Assembly: GCF_003605575.1 (NCBI RefSeq) | Contig: NZ_QKNY01000013.1 | Coordinates: 124,001-188,000, forward strand | Origin: Halonotius aquaticus | GTDB lineage: Archaea; Halobacteriota; Halobacteria; Halobacteriales; Haloferacaceae | Reading direction: 5' to 3' | Length of the DNA: 64,000 nucleotides | Shown here: piece after piece, positions 38,329 to 47,932 of the stretch | Position numbering within the stretch: the first letter of the stretch is position 1 | Layout of the letters: the number at the start of each line of letters is the position of its first letter | The notes under the pieces: model-generated | Told to the model about the DNA's origin: nothing | What the model saw: only the letters and a program-made list of their open reading frames with translations | Database searches by the model: none | Program-made: the position numbers and the translations under genes

Positions 38329-39381
38329 TCAGTCGTCGATCCGCACGCCGGTAAACTCGAAGCGCGCGCCGCCGTCCTCGCTGTCGGCGATGGCGACATC
38401 CCAGCCGTGGGCGGCGGCGATCTCCTCGACGATATTGAGCCCGAAGCCTGTCCCATCTGGATTGGTCGTGTAGCCGGCCTCGAAGATCTCATCGCGGTTG
38501 TCGGGGTCGATCCCCGGGCCGTCGTCGGCGACATAGAAGCCATCGGAAAGCGCGCCGATGGTGATCGCCACGTCGTCGCCGACGTGTTCGATGCTGTTGC
38601 GCAACAGATTTTCTAAGAGCTGCTGGAGGCGGCCTTCATCGGCGTGGACGACCAGTCCGTCGGCGACCGATAGCGCCGCGCCGGCGGTTTCGACGTTCGC
38701 CCAGCAGTTGGCGGCCAGAACCTCAAGATCGACCGGTTCCGTTTCTTCGACGGCTTGGCCCTCCCGAGCAAGCGTAAGCACGTCGTCGATGATCGCCTCC
38801 ATCCGGTCGAGATTTTTGGCGACGATCGGCGCGTGTTCGTCGTCGTCGATCAGTTCAATCCGGCCCTGGGCGACGCCGAGCGGATTCCGGAGGTCGTGGC
38901 TGACGACGTGGGCAAACCGTTCGAGGCGGTCGTTCTGTCGGCGAAGCTTCTGCGCTTGGCGGTGGCGTTCCAGCGCATACCGGATCGTCCGATGGAGCAC
39001 ATCGCCGTCGACATCGTCCTTCACGAGATAGTCTTGGGCTCCACGTTCGATCGCTTCCACGGCGGTCGCGTCATCCTTCAATCCGGTGAGCACGATCACC
39101 GGCAACGGCGACAGCGCGTCGGCGTCGTCGACGGCTTCGAGATACCGCTCTAAGGTATCCAGCCCCGTACTCTCTGGAAGCCCCAGATCAAGCAAGACCA
39201 GCTCAAACTCGGCGGATTTGAGTGCCTCGATCCCGGCGTCGAGCGATTCGACGTGTGTCACCGTCGCCGGCGGGAAGGTGCCACCGCCATCGGTGGTCAG
39301 GTGGTGTTCGAACAGCGTCGCATCCCCAGGGTTATCCTCGATGAGGAGAATCCGAAGCGTGTCGCTGACGCCGATCGACAT
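38329..39381 (-). CDS. Hybrid response regulator / histidine kinase
   Basis: A 350-residue protein. A receiver domain (about 8-130) has the phospho-acceptor Asp65 in ELVLLDLGLPES and Lys in the DYLVKDD loop. It is followed by a HisKA domain with His162 in HVVSHDLRNPLG, and an HATPase (ENLLRNSIEH near 257, DDGPGIDP, FGLNIVEEI). REC-to-HK order means it is probably controlled by phosphotransfer and then signals onward. The start is 2 nt from the stop of the upstream response regulator gene, so they are one transcript, divergent from the stressosome-like genes. Confidence 0.87.
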   Translation of the reverse strand: MSIGVSDTLRILLIEDNPGDATLFEHHLTTDGGGTFPPATVTHVESLDAGIEALKSAEFELVLLDLGLPESTGLDTLERYLEAVDDADALSPLPVIVLTGLKDDATAVEAIERGAQDYLVKDDVDGDVLHRTIRYALERHRQAQKLRRQNDRLERFAHVVSHDLRNPLGVAQGRIELIDDDEHAPIVAKNLDRMEAIIDDVLTLAREGQAVEETEPVDLEVLAANCWANVETAGAALSVADGLVVHADEGRLQQLLENLLRNSIEHVGDDVAITIGALSDGFYVADDGPGIDPDNRDEIFEAGYTTNPDGTGFGLNIVEEIAAAHGWDVAIADSEDGGARFEFTGVRIDD

Positions 39382-39382
39382 C

Positions 39383-39853
39383 TTATTTCTCCGGGAACTT
39401 CACGACCTGGAACCAGAAGTTCTCAAGCCGATTAACGATCTCGACGAAGCCGTCGAAATCGACGGGTTTGGTTAGATACGCGTTGGCGTTGAGCTCGTAG
39501 GATCTGACGATATCCTCCTCGGATTCCGAGCTTGTCAGCACGACAACCGGAATCCGGCGCAGTTCGTCGTCAGCGCGGAGCTCTTCGAGCACTTCCTGGC
39601 CGTCCTTTCGGGGCATATTGAGATCCAACAGAATCAGATCCGGGCGGGGGGCATCCTCGTACTCGCCGTCCTGACGCAGAAATTCCAACGCGTCGACGCC
39701 GTCTGTCGTCACATGCAGGTTGTTGGCGAGCTTCCCCTGTTCGAGTGCCTTGCGTGTCAACATGACATCTCCGGGGTTATCTTCGGCCAACAGAATCTCG
39801 ACTGGTTTATCGATATTCACGCCATGCCACCCTGGGTGCGCGTCGCTCGACAT
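39383..39853 (-). CDS. Single-domain response regulator (Rcp1-like)
   Basis: A 156-residue receiver. Residues of about 17-150 have the acidic pair in [10 protein letters not shown], phospho-acceptor Asp77 in [13 protein letters not shown], and conserved Lys129 in [10 protein letters not shown]. It has no DNA-binding output, so it relays phosphate or binds a partner, as in cyanobacterial Rcp1. The start may be the ATG at 39853 or a GTG at 39820 (MNIDKPVEI). It is the first gene of a two-gene operon with the hybrid kinase. Confidence 0.85.
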
Positions 39854-39995: not shown

Positions 39996-40763
39996 ATGGA
40001 CGACGACCTCATTGCGACGGGCCTCGACGAGCTGGAAGATATCTTCTATATTTTCACCCCGGAGGGCGATTTTGTGGAGTGGAACGAACAGTTGCCAGCG
40101 GTCTCAGGGTATGCCGGCGAGGAGCTGGACTCGATGGAGCCAACCGAGCTGTTTTCAGGCGGGGATCAAGACGCCATCGAGGACGCTGTCGACACCGTCA
40201 TTGATCGCGGGATCCGGACGGCTGTGCAGGCGAATCTCGAAACGAAGGGCGGCCGCGAGATCGCCTACGAGCTGTCGATGTCGCCGCTGGAACCCGACGA
40301 TGAGTTGGAGGCTATCGTCGGTATCGGCCGGGATATCACCGACCGGCTGGAGCAGGAACGCCGGCTGCAGGATATGGCCCAGGAGATCCAGGAACTCTCC
40401 ATGCCGGTCGTCGAGATCTGGGATGGGGTGATCCTCACGACGGTCGTCGGTTCGCTGGATACGCAAAAGGCCGAGCTGCTGACCGAGGATCTGCTTGATC
40501 AGATCGTCTCGACGGAGGCCGCCATCGCGCTGATCGACATCACCGAGGTCGCCGCCCTCGATACCGCGACCGCCCAACACCTGATTGATACGATCAACGC
40601 TGTCAATCTCCTCGGCGCGAATGTCGTGATCACGGGGATCAGCCCGGAGATCGCCCAGACGCTGGTCCAACTCGGCGTCCGGCTCGACGATGTCGAAACC
40701 CAGTCGTCGCTGATGGAAGGCCTCCGGGTCGCCCTCGCCTGGCAGGGGGTCGAGTTCGAATGA
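39996..40763 (+). CDS. RsbR-like stressosome protein (PAS-STAS)
   Basis: A 255-residue protein with an N-terminal PAS domain (about 8-120, DIFYIFTPEGDFVEWNEQL ... IVGIGRDITDR), a helical linker (QERRLQDMAQEIQELSMPVV) and a C-terminal STAS domain (about 138-250). The STAS domain matches bacterial RsbR: Thr190 in VAALDTATA aligns with the phosphorylated Thr171 of Bacillus RsbR, and Thr222 in SPEIAQTLVQLG with Thr205. RsbR oligomers build the stressosome core and sense through the N-terminal domain; here a PAS replaces the usual globin-like sensor. First gene of a tightly overlapping four-gene operon; ATGA overlap with the next. Confidence 0.88.
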   Translation: MDDDLIATGLDELEDIFYIFTPEGDFVEWNEQLPAVSGYAGEELDSMEPTELFSGGDQDAIEDAVDTVIDRGIRTAVQANLETKGGREIAYELSMSPLEPDDELEAIVGIGRDITDRLEQERRLQDMAQEIQELSMPVVEIWDGVILTTVVGSLDTQKAELLTEDLLDQIVSTEAAIALIDITEVAALDTATAQHLIDTINAVNLLGANVVITGISPEIAQTLVQLGVRLDDVETQSSLMEGLRVALAWQGVEFE

Positions 40764-41206
40764 CCGCGACCGACAGTGCCGCCGTAACCGAGGTCTTCGA
40801 TGTGTTAATCGCGACGTTCCCCGGTCGCCCAACCGATCAGGCCGTTGATGAGCTCCGACAAGACGTGTTGGATCGGATGGAGACGGCCGATCCCCGTGGT
40901 GTCGTCCTCGACATCTCGGCTGTGACGACGCTGGATTCGTTTTTCGCTCGGGTGATCTCAGAGACCGCCAGCATGGTCGAACTGATGGGCGGTGCGGCCA
41001 TCGTCGTCGGCATGCGCCCGAGTGTGGCGATCACCGCGGCCGAACTCGGCTTTGGACTTGAGTCCGTCGAGACCGCCCGCAGCACCGACCACGCGCTGTC
41101 GATGCTGGGCATCAGCGTTGAGGCGACCGACGACGACACGAGTGACCCAGACGACGGCGTTATCGACCGATCCAGCCCTACGTCGTCGCCCGGAGGCAGG
41201 CAATGA
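40760..41206 (+). CDS. RsbS-like stressosome STAS protein
   Basis: A 148-residue STAS protein. Ser60 in TTLDSFFARVISETASMVEL aligns with the phosphorylated Ser59 of Bacillus RsbS (IDSF); the following GGAAIVVGMRPSVAITAAEL matches the RsbS core closely. RsbS caps RsbR in the stressosome and holds RsbT until phosphorylated. A short acidic C-terminal tail is extra. The start overlaps the RsbR-like stop and the stop overlaps the RsbT-like start, each in ATGA, so production is coupled. Confidence 0.88.
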   Translation: MTATDSAAVTEVFDVLIATFPGRPTDQAVDELRQDVLDRMETADPRGVVLDISAVTTLDSFFARVISETASMVELMGGAAIVVGMRPSVAITAAELGFGLESVETARSTDHALSMLGISVEATDDDTSDPDDGVIDRSSPTSSPGGRQ

Positions 41207-41649
41207 GTGAACGGGCGGATGCTGCCGACGCCATCGACACCGAGGCGACGGTGCTCCGCTCGGGAACAATCCGCGTGCGGTCGGAAGACGACATTTTGCG
41301 GGCCAGACAGGAGGCCCGAGAGATTGCCGAGGAGATCGAGTTTTCGACAACCGATGTGACCCGGATCGTCACCGGCGTTTCAGAGCTCACGCGTAACATG
41401 CACCTTTACGCCGAGGACGGCATCATGGAATGGCGTGAGATCGAGGCCGGCCGGGACAGCGGGCTCGAACTCGTTTTTGACGATAACGGCCCCGGGATCG
41501 ACGACATCGAGGGAGTACTGCGAGCCGAACACTCGACGTCAGGCGGGATGGGACGCGGCATCCAGGGCACAAAAAAGCTCATGGATGCCTTCGAGATCGT
41601 CTCAACCCCTGACGACGGCACGACGATCACGGTTCGGAAGTGGCGATAA
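41203..41649 (+). CDS. RsbT-like anti-sigma/switch kinase
   Basis: A 148-residue GHKL-type ATPase/Ser-Thr kinase. The N-box Asn65 lies in VSELTRNMHLYA, DDNGPGIDD near 93-101 is the G1 box, and STSGGMGRGIQG at 111-122 is the G2 loop. These match Bacillus RsbT closely. In bacteria RsbT phosphorylates RsbR and RsbS, is then released and activates a downstream partner such as RsbU. The N-terminal 15 residues are extra. Stop TAA overlaps the ATG of the next gene (taATG). Confidence 0.88.
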   Translation: MSERADAADAIDTEATVLRSGTIRVRSEDDILRARQEAREIAEEIEFSTTDVTRIVTGVSELTRNMHLYAEDGIMEWREIEAGRDSGLELVFDDNGPGIDDIEGVLRAEHSTSGGMGRGIQGTKKLMDAFEIVSTPDDGTTITVRKWR

Positions 41650-42689
41650 TGTCCGAGCCGACACGCGAACAAACGGAGCGACACGAGATCACCCAAGACG
41701 GCGACGACATCCTCGTCAAACAGGCCGCCGAATCAATGGCTGCGGCCATCGGCTTCGAGGAGTCGGCGGCCGCCGAGATCGGCATCGTCGCCGTCGAACT
41801 CGCCTCGAACGTGCTCAAACACGCCGACAGCGGTGAGGTCGCACTCAGCCATCTCACTGACGGCGACCGTGAGGGGGTTCGGATCGAGTCCTTCGATGTC
41901 GGCCCTGGCATCGCCAATGTGGATGCAGCCTTCGAGGATGGCGCGTCAACAGCCGGCAGCCTGGGCGGCGGGTTAGGGGCGGTCAACCGACTCATGCACC
42001 GGCTGACCGTCACCGCCCCCGGCGAGCCGGATTTCGGAACCAAGGTCGTCGCTGATCGCTGGAAGCGAAAGCCAGCGTCGGCGACGCGCCCCTGCCCGCT
42101 TTCGTTTGGTGCCGCGTCACGACCCGCGGCCAACGAGACGGTCAACGGCGACAGCTTCGTCATCAAACGGTGGGACGAGCAGGCGCTCGTCGGCGTGATC
42201 GACGGGCTCGGCCACGGGGCCGACGCCCACGAGGCGTCTATGGCGGCGACAGAGTACGTCGAAACGCACTACGACAGCCGGATGGAAGCGATCTTTGACG
42301 GCACCGAACGCGCCTGTCGCGGCACCCGTGGTGTCGTCATGGCACTGGCTCGCTTCGACTGGGACGCCGAGACGGTGACGTTTGCCACGGTTGGCAACAT
42401 CAACTACAAACTCACCGACGACACCGATCTCACCGTTGTCCCACGCCGTGGCGTCGTCGGGAGCAACGGCCCCGATCCGAAGGTTACACACAGCGAGTGG
42501 CGGCCGGGCGATCGGCTGGTGTTGTTTTCTGACGGCGTCGACTCTCACTGGGAGCTGCCACCGGCCCGATCGATGGCAGATGAGTCGGCGACGGTTACGG
42601 CCCGACGGCTGCTTGATCAGCACAGCAAACCGCACGACGACGCGACCGTGCTGGTGGTCAGCGAGCAGGTTGCCGATCACTCTGACTGA
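41649..42689 (+). CDS. ATPase-PP2C phosphatase fusion (RsbT/W-like plus RsbX/SpoIIE-like)
   Basis: A 346-residue fusion. The first half (about 12-135) is a second HATPase with the N-box in VELASNVLKHAD (Asn54) and DVGPGIANV; the G2 loop is SLGGGLGAVNRLM. The second half (about 150-340) is a PP2C of the SpoIIE/RsbX type: metal residues in GDSFVI near 167, VIDGLGHGADAHEAS near 183, LFSDGVDSH near 291 and DDATVLVVSE near 330. RsbX dephosphorylates RsbR/RsbS and resets the stressosome. The ATG at 41649 shares a base with the RsbT-like stop. Confidence 0.86.
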   Translation: MSEPTREQTERHEITQDGDDILVKQAAESMAAAIGFEESAAAEIGIVAVELASNVLKHADSGEVALSHLTDGDREGVRIESFDVGPGIANVDAAFEDGASTAGSLGGGLGAVNRLMHRLTVTAPGEPDFGTKVVADRWKRKPASATRPCPLSFGAASRPAANETVNGDSFVIKRWDEQALVGVIDGLGHGADAHEASMAATEYVETHYDSRMEAIFDGTERACRGTRGVVMALARFDWDAETVTFATVGNINYKLTDDTDLTVVPRRGVVGSNGPDPKVTHSEWRPGDRLVLFSDGVDSHWELPPARSMADESATVTARRLLDQHSKPHDDATVLVVSEQVADHSD

Positions 42690-42735: not shown

Positions 42736-42761
42736 CTCGTGGTCGGCGTACCTCATTGTCA

Positions 42762-45053
42762 ATGGCTCAGCTTATCCCGTCGCTCTGCGACGATCTCGGG
42801 GTCGGGATATCGGTACATGATCCCGACACCGGCGTGATTCACAGCGTCAACGAACGGGTCGAAGCGCTGACCGGGCACCCGGCCGCGGAGCTGCGCGGTA
42901 CCACGATGGAGGCATACTCGGCCGCCGATGCGACGGCGACGTCGGATGCGTTCCACCAACAGATTCAGGCGACAACCGACGGGGAGCCCCAACAGTTTGC
43001 ATGGGCGGTTGCGACCCCGAGCGGCCAGGTGTCACAGCTTCGTGTTCGGCTCTCGACGACCACGCTCGATGGCGAGCCGTATGTGCTGGCCGAATTCCAG
43101 GATATCACCCCCGAGCAGGATCGGATCAATCAGCTCAAAACCCAGGAGTCGGTGCTACGACGCTTTCACGAACTGGCCTCGCAATCGGCACCGTTCGAGG
43201 AACGGATGGCGTCGCTGCTGGAGTTCGGTCGCACGGTCATGGGTGTCGAGCAGGGATTTCTGACCAGTATCGACGGCGACACCCAACGGATCACGATCGG
43301 TGTTGGCCCCAACGACCAGCTCCAAGACGGTGCGACCGCGCCGTTTGCGGAATCCTACTGCCGGTATACGGTCGAGCCCGACCGCGACCAGCCGATGACG
43401 GTCGTCAATGCTGCCGAGGATGGCTGGGAGAACGACCCCGCCTACGATCGGTTTGGGCTGGGCTGTTATGCGGGCTCGAAGCTTGTCGTCGATGGCGAAA
43501 CGGTCGGGACGCTCTGTTTTGCTGACCGCGACCCCACGGACACACCGTTTACTGAACTGCAAGAAACGTTCATCGAACTGCTCAGTGAGTGGGCGAGCAC
43601 CGAACTCGAACGCGCCGACCGCGAACAGGAGTTGCGACGAAAGGATCGCGCGATCGAGGCTGCCCCGGTCGGCATTACGATCACCAATCCCGAGCAAAGC
43701 GATAATCCGCTGATCTACGTCAACGACCGCTACGAGGAGATGACGGGGTACAGTGAAGCCGACGCGCTGGGCCGCAACTGTCGGTTTCTACAGGGCGATG
43801 CAACCCGCGAGGAGCCGGTCGCCGAGATGCGTCAGGCTATCGACAACGCCGAGTCGGTAACTGTCGAACTTCGGAACTACCAACAGGACGGCCAGCAGTT
43901 CTGGAACCGGGTTTCGATCGCACCTGTGACCGACGACGAGGGGGTGCTGACGAACTTCGTCGGGTTCCAACAGGACATCACCGAGGACAAACAGCAACAA
44001 CTGGAACTCGAACGCACAAGCGAACTTCTCGAACAGACCCAACAGGTGGCCAACATCGGCGGTTGGGAGTATGACCTGCGCTCGGAGACGCTCCAGTGGA
44101 CCGATGAGGTCTATCATATCCACGGGAAGCCAGAGACGTATGATCCGACCGTGGGGGCGGCGATCGAGCAGTTCCACCCGGATGACAGGGAATCACTCCG
44201 CTCGGCGTTTGCGGAGCTCACAACCGACGGCACGCCGTTCGATCTTGAGGTGCGGATCCTGCGAGACGACGGCACGATGCGGTGGGTTCGCACCCGAGGC
44301 ACCCCGCGGTACGACGGCGACGAACTCGTGGCCGTGGCCGGAACGCAACAGGACATCACCGAGCGCAAGGAGTTCGAGGAGGAGCTCAAACGCTCAAACG
44401 AGCGGTTACAGGAGTTTGCGTACATTCTCTCCCATGATCTCCAGGAGCCACTGCGGATGGTATCGAGTTACGTCTGTCTGCTGGAGGAAGAACTCGAAGA
44501 GCAGCTTGATGACGAAACCAGGCAGTATATCGATTTCGCCGTCGACGGGGCCGAGCGAATGCGTGGGATGATCGACGGACTTCTCCTCTACTCCCGGGTT
44601 GAAACTGAAGGCAGCGAACACACCGAAACCGATGTCAACACCGTCCTTTCGGCTGTCGAGGCGGATCTCGAACTCAAACTTGCGGAGACGGACTCGGAAC
44701 TCCACGTCGACAGCCTCCCGACGATCGAGGCCGATGAGGATCAGTTGGTGCAACTGTTTGAGAATCTGATTAAAAATGCGATCGAACATGGCGGCGAGGA
44801 GACAACGGTCAGCGTGACCAGCACGTCGGTTCCCGAAGGAGTTCAGTTCGCTGTCAGCGACGACGGCCCCGGCATTCCAGCCGACCAGCAGGATGAGATC
44901 TTCGGCCTCTTTGATAAGGGCGGCGACAGCGATGGCACGGGGATCGGGTTGGCGATCTGTGAGCGGATCGTCGCCCGCCACGACGGCGAGATCAGCGTCG
45001 AGTCGACGCCCGGCGAGGGAGCCACGTTCTACGTCACGCTACCCGACAGCTAA
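42762..45053 (+). CDS. LOV-domain sensor histidine kinase
   Basis: A 763-residue soluble kinase. Order: PAS (about 10-118), GAF (about 135-285), a LOV domain (about 295-410), PAS (about 430-535), HisKA with His558 in YILSHDLQEPLRM, and HATPase (about 655-763; NLIKNAIEHGG, DDGPGIPADQ, GTGIGLAIC). The LOV core has the canonical GRNCRFLQGD with Cys340, and downstream ELRNYQQDG and FWNRVSIAPV, the residues that bind flavin and form the photo-adduct. This predicts a blue-light-sensing kinase, as in bacterial LOV kinases. The cognate regulator is not identified; two receiver genes lie 3.4 kb away. The ATG at 42762 is preferred to a TTG at 42756. Confidence 0.9.
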   Translation: MAQLIPSLCDDLGVGISVHDPDTGVIHSVNERVEALTGHPAAELRGTTMEAYSAADATATSDAFHQQIQATTDGEPQQFAWAVATPSGQVSQLRVRLSTTTLDGEPYVLAEFQDITPEQDRINQLKTQESVLRRFHELASQSAPFEERMASLLEFGRTVMGVEQGFLTSIDGDTQRITIGVGPNDQLQDGATAPFAESYCRYTVEPDRDQPMTVVNAAEDGWENDPAYDRFGLGCYAGSKLVVDGETVGTLCFADRDPTDTPFTELQETFIELLSEWASTELERADREQELRRKDRAIEAAPVGITITNPEQSDNPLIYVNDRYEEMTGYSEADALGRNCRFLQGDATREEPVAEMRQAIDNAESVTVELRNYQQDGQQFWNRVSIAPVTDDEGVLTNFVGFQQDITEDKQQQLELERTSELLEQTQQVANIGGWEYDLRSETLQWTDEVYHIHGKPETYDPTVGAAIEQFHPDDRESLRSAFAELTTDGTPFDLEVRILRDDGTMRWVRTRGTPRYDGDELVAVAGTQQDITERKEFEEELKRSNERLQEFAYILSHDLQEPLRMVSSYVCLLEEELEEQLDDETRQYIDFAVDGAERMRGMIDGLLLYSRVETEGSEHTETDVNTVLSAVEADLELKLAETDSELHVDSLPTIEADEDQLVQLFENLIKNAIEHGGEETTVSVTSTSVPEGVQFAVSDDGPGIPADQQDEIFGLFDKGGDSDGTGIGLAICERIVARHDGEISVESTPGEGATFYVTLPDS

Positions 45054-47353: not shown

Positions 47354-47932
47354 TCACGGCGATGACGTGTCAATAGCCGTCTCGACCGGCTCCTGAAACC
47401 CGACCCAGTTGCTGATCGTCCCTGTTTCGTCGGGGATCGGCGCGATAGCAACCCGGCTGTAAAATGGTGTGCCATCAGCGCGGTAGTTTTGCAACTCGGT
47501 AATCGCGGCTGTCCAGATCTCGGTTGCCTCTCGCAGCGTAGCGACCGGCTCGGCGGCCGTCTCGGGGCCTTGCAGACACCGGAGGTTCTCGCCCAGCACG
47601 TCTGCTTCGGCGTACCCGGTCAGCGACTCGAAGGCGTCGTTGGCGTACCACACCGGATTGTCCTCGTAGGCTGGACCGGTGATCACCATGCTGATCGGGG
47701 CGGTGTCCATCGCAGGCGTCGCCCACCCGATTGCCGTCTCGTCGCCACCGCCGTATGTTTCGGGCGCTGCGGCCGTTCGAATCTCACCAAGGGCCGCCGC
47801 CAGCGAGTCGGCAACGGCTGTCGATGGGATCGTCGGCCCGTCGTCGACATGCTGCCGAAGTAGAGCCCCAACGTCCGCTGATTCGGCCATACCAGCGGTT
47901 GGAGACCGAGCCATGTAGGCGTTGAGATCCAT
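47354..47932 (-). CDS. PAS/LOV-like domain protein with shifted cysteine
   Basis: A 192-residue protein with an N-terminal helical part (DVGALLRQHVDDGPTIPS, then AVADSLAAALGEIRTAA) and a single PAS domain (about 75-185, ISMVITGPAYEDNPVWYAND, FESLTGYAEADVLGENLRCL, then ELQNYRADGTPFYSRVAIAP). The LOV hallmark GXNCRFLQG reads GENLRCLQG here: the usual Cys position is Leu and a Cys (119) sits two residues on. Flavin-contact residues NYRADG and a polar residue in FYSRV are partly kept. No output domain is attached. The start is uncertain among ATGs at 47932, 47914 and 47890. Confidence 0.72.
   Translation of the reverse strand: MDLNAYMARSPTAGMAESADVGALLRQHVDDGPTIPSTAVADSLAAALGEIRTAAAPETYGGGDETAIGWATPAMDTAPISMVITGPAYEDNPVWYANDAFESLTGYAEADVLGENLRCLQGPETAAEPVATLREATEIWTAAITELQNYRADGTPFYSRVAIAPIPDETGTISNWVGFQEPVETAIDTSSP

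Follow-up and report, generated by a model that had tools for sequence, protein, structure and literature searches.

The genes considered here lie within a 64,000-nucleotide stretch of Halonotius aquaticus DNA, referred to as the window, where four overlapping genes on the forward strand span positions 39996 to 42689:

39996..40763, + strand, rsbR: PAS-STAS sensor/scaffold subunit of 255 aa (Pfam PAS_4, E = 3e-13, and STAS, E = 2e-13; structure match 6qcm)
40760..41206, + strand, rsbS: STAS scaffold subunit of 148 aa (Pfam STAS, E = 7e-10; structure match 6jhk)
41203..41649, + strand, rsbT: GHKL serine/threonine kinase of 148 aa (Pfam HATPase_c_2, E = 8e-9)
41649..42689, + strand, rsbX-like: RsbT-like ATPase domain fused to a PP2C/SpoIIE phosphatase (Pfam HATPase_c_2, E = 9e-9, and SpoIIE, E = 2e-10), 346 aa from its ATG start or 349 aa from a GTG start at 41640

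Adjacent reading frames overlap by 4 bp at the R/S and S/T junctions and by 1 bp at the T/X junction (TAATG). Coordinates and Pfam assignments agree with the original prediction of an R, S, T and ATPase-PP2C fusion cluster, and Pfam and NCBIfam together classify the products as PAS-STAS, STAS, GHKL ATPase and GHKL-SpoIIE proteins. Among solved structures, the best matches of RsbR and RsbS are all stressosome subunits (6qcm, 7b0u, 7o0i and 6jhk), with RsbR closest to the stressosome subunit RsbR 6qcm (E = 4e-25) and RsbS closest to the stressosome RsbS 6jhk (E = 4e-17), followed by 6qcm (E = 1e-15). RsbT gave weak structural matches only, to SpoIIAB (E = 0.05), and its family assignment is based on Pfam/NCBIfam and alignment. 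A single-sequence AlphaFold2 model of RsbS reached a pLDDT of 49 and was left unused. With rsbR, rsbS, rsbT and an RsbX-type phosphatase gene contiguous, the locus is almost certainly a complete RSTX stressosome module.

A closer look at the proteins shows the expected acceptor residues in place. RsbS Ser60, within LDSFF (codon 40937-40939), is equivalent to Bacillus RsbS Ser59, while RsbR Thr190, within LDTATAQ (codon 40563-40565), and Thr222, within EIAQT (codon 40659-40661), are equivalent to RsbR Thr171 and Thr205; the residue numbers in the original prediction were exact. Loss of these sites in relatives would have spoken against that prediction, and the alignment gave the opposite result, with all three positions phosphorylatable in each of 32 archaeal modules: the Thr222 position is invariably Thr, 26 modules have Thr and 6 have Ser at the Thr190 position, and the Ser60 position is Ser throughout (31 aligned, and L025 read by eye). 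The kinase keeps its N-box and G loops, as had been claimed, with ELTRN and DNGPGI intact in RsbT (aligned over 32 archaeal RsbT). In the X protein, the ATPase boxes are retained and the PP2C residues (GD, DGLGHG, DG and DD) are invariant in 17/17 archaeal X proteins compared. Judged from these sequences, the module is likely to work as a partner-switch.

Checks of the whole host genome (2.47 Mb, 98% complete) were run family by family. Its two STAS proteins and single SpoIIE phosphatase are all within the rsbRSTX operon. No sigma factor was detected (no Sigma70_r2 match), as anticipated for an archaeon, and the genome lacks the RsbU/RsbV/RsbW and sigma factor set of a SigB-type general stress response. 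Among named relatives, Halonotius roseus (G231; locus L085) is the closest, with 84% identity in RsbT. As for the sensor, the PAS domain of RsbR showed no diagnostic cofactor motif, and the redox or ligand input that had been proposed for it is a guess. The LOV motif GxNCRFLQ was looked for in the same domain and is absent, occurring instead in the kinase encoded downstream.

The archaeal stressosome is known in outline. rsbRSTX has been described in “even some archaeal species” (PMC9237108), and archaeal stressosomes are also mentioned elsewhere (PMC10014275, citing Pane-Farre et al. 2017; PMC8942246), so the occurrence itself is not the novelty that it had seemed; within the coverage of our literature search, which leaves subscription papers outside, no study of a haloarchaeal module was found. 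RsbT occurs in 28/393 genomes sampled from the phylum Halobacteriota (19/137 genera), in 11/392 Halobacteria genomes (8/86 genera) and in 3/5 Halonotius genomes. Plasmid-borne copies are found in Halobaculum halophilum and Halanaeroarchaeum sp., and one haloarchaeal genome carries two modules, L027 (G001:C3) and L028 (G001:C2), on two secondary contigs, one of 105 kb and one of 170 kb.

The gene-neighbourhood survey suggested in the original prediction found the order R-S-T in 32/32 archaeal loci examined, with a downstream signalling protein conserved past the point equivalent to 42689 in most related modules. Where X stands alone, the next archaeal gene usually encodes a histidine kinase, or a comparable signalling protein, that bears RsbU_N; this domain (PF08673) was matched on the downstream effectors of methanogen-type relatives at E-values of 1e-8 to 8e-19. 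Where X is fused to an ATPase domain, the next protein carries an ELEETNEGxVAL coiled coil (“ETN”) near its N-terminus, which matches no Pfam family and is apparently a motif hitherto undescribed. ETN is followed by a histidine kinase in L025 and L026, the sister modules of the one in the window, by a kinase together with a response regulator gene in L030 and L031, and by a short coiled-coil protein in L060, L061 and L068. This divides archaeal outputs into two classes that scarcely overlap, one pairing stand-alone RsbX with an RsbU_N-histidine kinase and the other pairing the ATPase-RsbX fusion with an ETN protein, a division that is a new finding. Among loci with X and a recognised adapter, 19 combine fusion X with ETN, 16 stand-alone X with RsbU_N, one fusion X with RsbU_N and none stand-alone X with ETN (nominal Fisher p = 2e-9, a value that ignores shared ancestry).

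The adapters also track RsbT across genomes. Full ETN matches occur in 7/11 RsbT-positive versus 0/381 RsbT-negative Halobacteria genomes, and in the phylum sample ETN occurs in 8/28 RsbT-positive versus 0/365 RsbT-negative genomes and RsbU_N in 16/28 versus 7/365, the two never together in one genome. Because ten of the counted loci went into the ETN profile, the weight of this evidence lies on the absence of ETN from RsbT-negative genomes and on loci outside the profile building (G250, G277, G412, G577, L086, L088, L103, L123, L127 and L144). The seven genomes with an RsbU_N protein and no RsbT match at E = 1e-6 (G406, G424, G459, G468, G501, G672 and G686) may have a divergent RsbT or use the domain in another way. 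In L027-L029, X has no ATPase part and the ETN motif is degraded (TTKGTLQL in both L027 and L029, and a similar sequence in L028), which suggests from sequence that the motif and the ATPase-X belong together.

Several ETN proteins have unusual architectures. Directly after the module in one haloarchaeal genus (g42) is an ETN-GAF-BAT-HTH_10 protein (L032:8687-11170, L033:8632-11109 and L034:8598-11063), a candidate for a direct link between a stressosome and a Bat-type transcription factor; dismissal of this 821-827 aa frame as a spurious ORF was rejected on the strength of its domains. Candidatus Anammoxibacter (L088:4470-9591) combines a protoglobin-STAS RsbR with an ETN-PAS-GGDEF-EAL output, whose domains point to c-di-GMP signalling. 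An RsbT-like domain is fused ahead of ETN in an archaeal kinase that also has PAS repeats (L059:8523-12284) and in Deinococcus (L072). Three tandem ETN copies are present in a Methylococcaceae protein (L103:2692-5118) that follows an R-S-T-(ATPase-X) module.

The window module is flanked by two-component genes on both sides:

42756..45053, + strand, candidate output: PAS-GAF-LOV-PAS histidine kinase (Pfam; TTG start at 42756, ATG at 42762)
39383..39853, - strand, receiver-only response regulator, divergent (Pfam Response_reg; synteny in L024, L177 and L178)
38329..39381, - strand, receiver-histidine kinase of the same flanking cluster (Pfam; synteny)

The kinase gene starts 67 bp past X, and its LOV signature is GRNCRFLQ (GRNCRFLQ/GRNCRFMQ across the window and H. 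roseus kinases). An ortholog (68%) likewise follows X in H. roseus. The window kinase carries neither an ETN nor an RsbU_N adapter, and both are absent from the entire genomes of the window strain (G000) and H. roseus. Of the three Halonotius modules, two retain the LOV kinase after X; in the third (G706), X is followed by the gene for an unrelated protein of 156 aa, and R is preceded by a related non-LOV kinase. A relative without rsbRSTX, G704, has at the same site (L178:9215-13158), between the same flanking genes, a receiver-kinase, receiver and kinase cluster that includes the counterpart of 38329..39853 and the non-LOV kinase seen in G706. Since G706 has no LOV kinase after X and a related kinase lies at the module-free site, the adjacency could reflect the history of the insertion site, and the case for the 42756-45053 kinase as an obligatory partner is weakened. 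The simplest history would be that the module came to lie inside an older two-component cluster, that the ETN protein was lost and that the module now has beside it, in two species, a LOV kinase akin to the local kinase. That this kinase is the output of the window module is a tentative assignment, which we place slightly below an even chance. A second LOV-like PAS stretch, 40% similar to the LOV part of this kinase, lies at 47384-47845 on the reverse strand of the window.

Bacillus RsbT binds to RsbU_N together with its linker; the coiled coil that becomes ordered in this way activates the output domain, and this kind of input is proposed to be swapped with histidine kinases and diguanylate cyclases (PMC12143880). 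Most downstream proteins of the bacterial modules surveyed in PMC9237108 are without RsbU_N. We propose that RsbR, with its PAS sensor, and RsbS build a core that would hold RsbT. Upon a signal, RsbT would phosphorylate RsbS Ser60 and RsbR Thr190 and Thr222 and be released, while the ATPase-RsbX phosphatase would strip the phosphates and reset the core. Released RsbT, the ATPase domain of X, or both, would then act on a signalling protein, a target proposed because the genome has no sigma factor. In most relatives, the effector is encoded directly downstream and would be reached via RsbU_N or the ETN coiled coil; by analogy with Bacillus, the latter would become ordered through RsbT or through the T-like domain that X carries. 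In Halonotius, where both adapters are missing, the likeliest target would be the LOV histidine kinase, which could feed a phosphorelay with light as a second input. The general proposal, that fusion-X stressosomes reach their outputs via an ETN docking element (~25-45 residues) on histidine kinases, a GGDEF-EAL enzyme and a Bat/HTH_10 factor, and that Halonotius represents a natural adapter loss with a light-sensing kinase instead, seems to us evenly poised. For the window, we lean towards the whole explanation, an acquired RSTX stressosome whose RsbT or X acts on a signalling protein, with the LOV kinase as the likeliest target.

The main competitor, possible though less probable, is a working stressosome whose output is an unlinked partner, such as a response regulator or Bat-type regulator elsewhere in the genome. 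The absence of either adapter anywhere in the window genome would fit such a partner, as would the G706 module without its downstream LOV kinase and the use of a Bat/HTH_10 output by one haloarchaeal genus, whereas the effector is the next gene in most other modules and the LOV kinase follows X in two of the three Halonotius modules. It is also conceivable, although unlikely, that the module is a recently acquired mobile block that has lost its effector and ceased to signal. The ETN effector is indeed gone in Halonotius, occurrence in the genus is patchy and relatives lie on plasmids; however, the four genes are intact and overlapping, the catalytic and phosphorylation sites are kept, and RsbR and RsbT are 82-89% identical between Halonotius species, with no stop and no frameshift. 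The acquired, signalling module remains the reading that we prefer.

How the module arrived was addressed with a concatenated RsbS+RsbT tree (61 rows, 264 columns), which is unrooted and carries a long-branch warning. Haloarchaeal modules form one clade (98/94), which joins Opitutaceae, Anammoxibacter and a proteobacterium at 100/100, while methanogen-type modules are scattered at several other positions among bacteria. That the haloarchaeal modules group with bacteria and separately from those of other archaea is a new finding, and the phylogeny that the original prediction had called for supports its view of acquisition as a unit from bacteria. Ancient archaeal inheritance with no bacterial transfer could draw on the presence of the module in many families of the phylum, but a single all-archaea clade was rejected by the AU test (p = 7.7e-6); given this and the position of the haloarchaeal clade, vertical inheritance within archaea was rejected and we consider an ancient origin very improbable. 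The module was probably taken over as a block, and the direction would be from bacteria to archaea because its distribution is sparse and partly plasmid-borne.

A key question for stressosomes beyond the Bacillales is the target of RsbT, and since archaea allow a sigma factor to be excluded, they provide a clean case. For many modules, bacterial as well as archaeal, the adapter classes offer a concrete answer that can be tested, and the output adapters are a more interesting result than the module itself. On present sequence evidence, module-bearing archaea appear to have wired the stressosome to histidine kinases or to an archaeal transcription factor, in place of a sigma factor. If the Bat/HTH_10 case is true, a bacterial signalling hub would directly feed an archaeal regulator, and if ETN docking is true, an archaeon would tie a bacterial stress hub straight to its own transcriptional control. 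Within the known archaeal stressosome, the haloarchaeal form described here, which has a fused X, no sigma factor and no recognised adapter, represents a new variant.

Compared to the Bacillus/Listeria stressosome, the window has homologues of RsbR, RsbS and RsbT with equivalent phosphorylation sites, but the RsbU-RsbV-RsbW-SigB cascade has no counterpart in its genome, and a PAS domain takes the place of the non-haem globin domain of RsbR. The PAS-STAS architecture is shared with the LOV-STAS photoreceptor YtvA, to which the window RsbR has a partial NCBIfam match. YtvA, however, has a LOV cysteine motif that this RsbR lacks, and the match scores 96.8 bits against a family cut-off of 250; a YtvA-type photoreceptor identity was rejected. 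As in the window, the minimal rsbRSTX module of Gram-negative bacteria, represented by Vibrio vulnificus (PMC9237108; PMC10014275), has these four functions in identical order, a locus free of sigma factors and adjoining two-component proteins, but in Vibrio its RsbR sensor is a haem globin and its RsbX stands alone, in contrast to the PAS sensor and ATPase-RsbX fusion found here. The output kinase of Vibrio sp. THAF64 has no ETN motif. The closest bacteria in the tree are Opitutaceae (L086) and Anammoxibacter (L088). While both keep an ETN output protein that is absent from the window genome, they share its R-S-T-(ATPase-X) gene order, and the Opitutaceae module combines a PAS-STAS RsbR with an ATPase-X fusion, as in the window.
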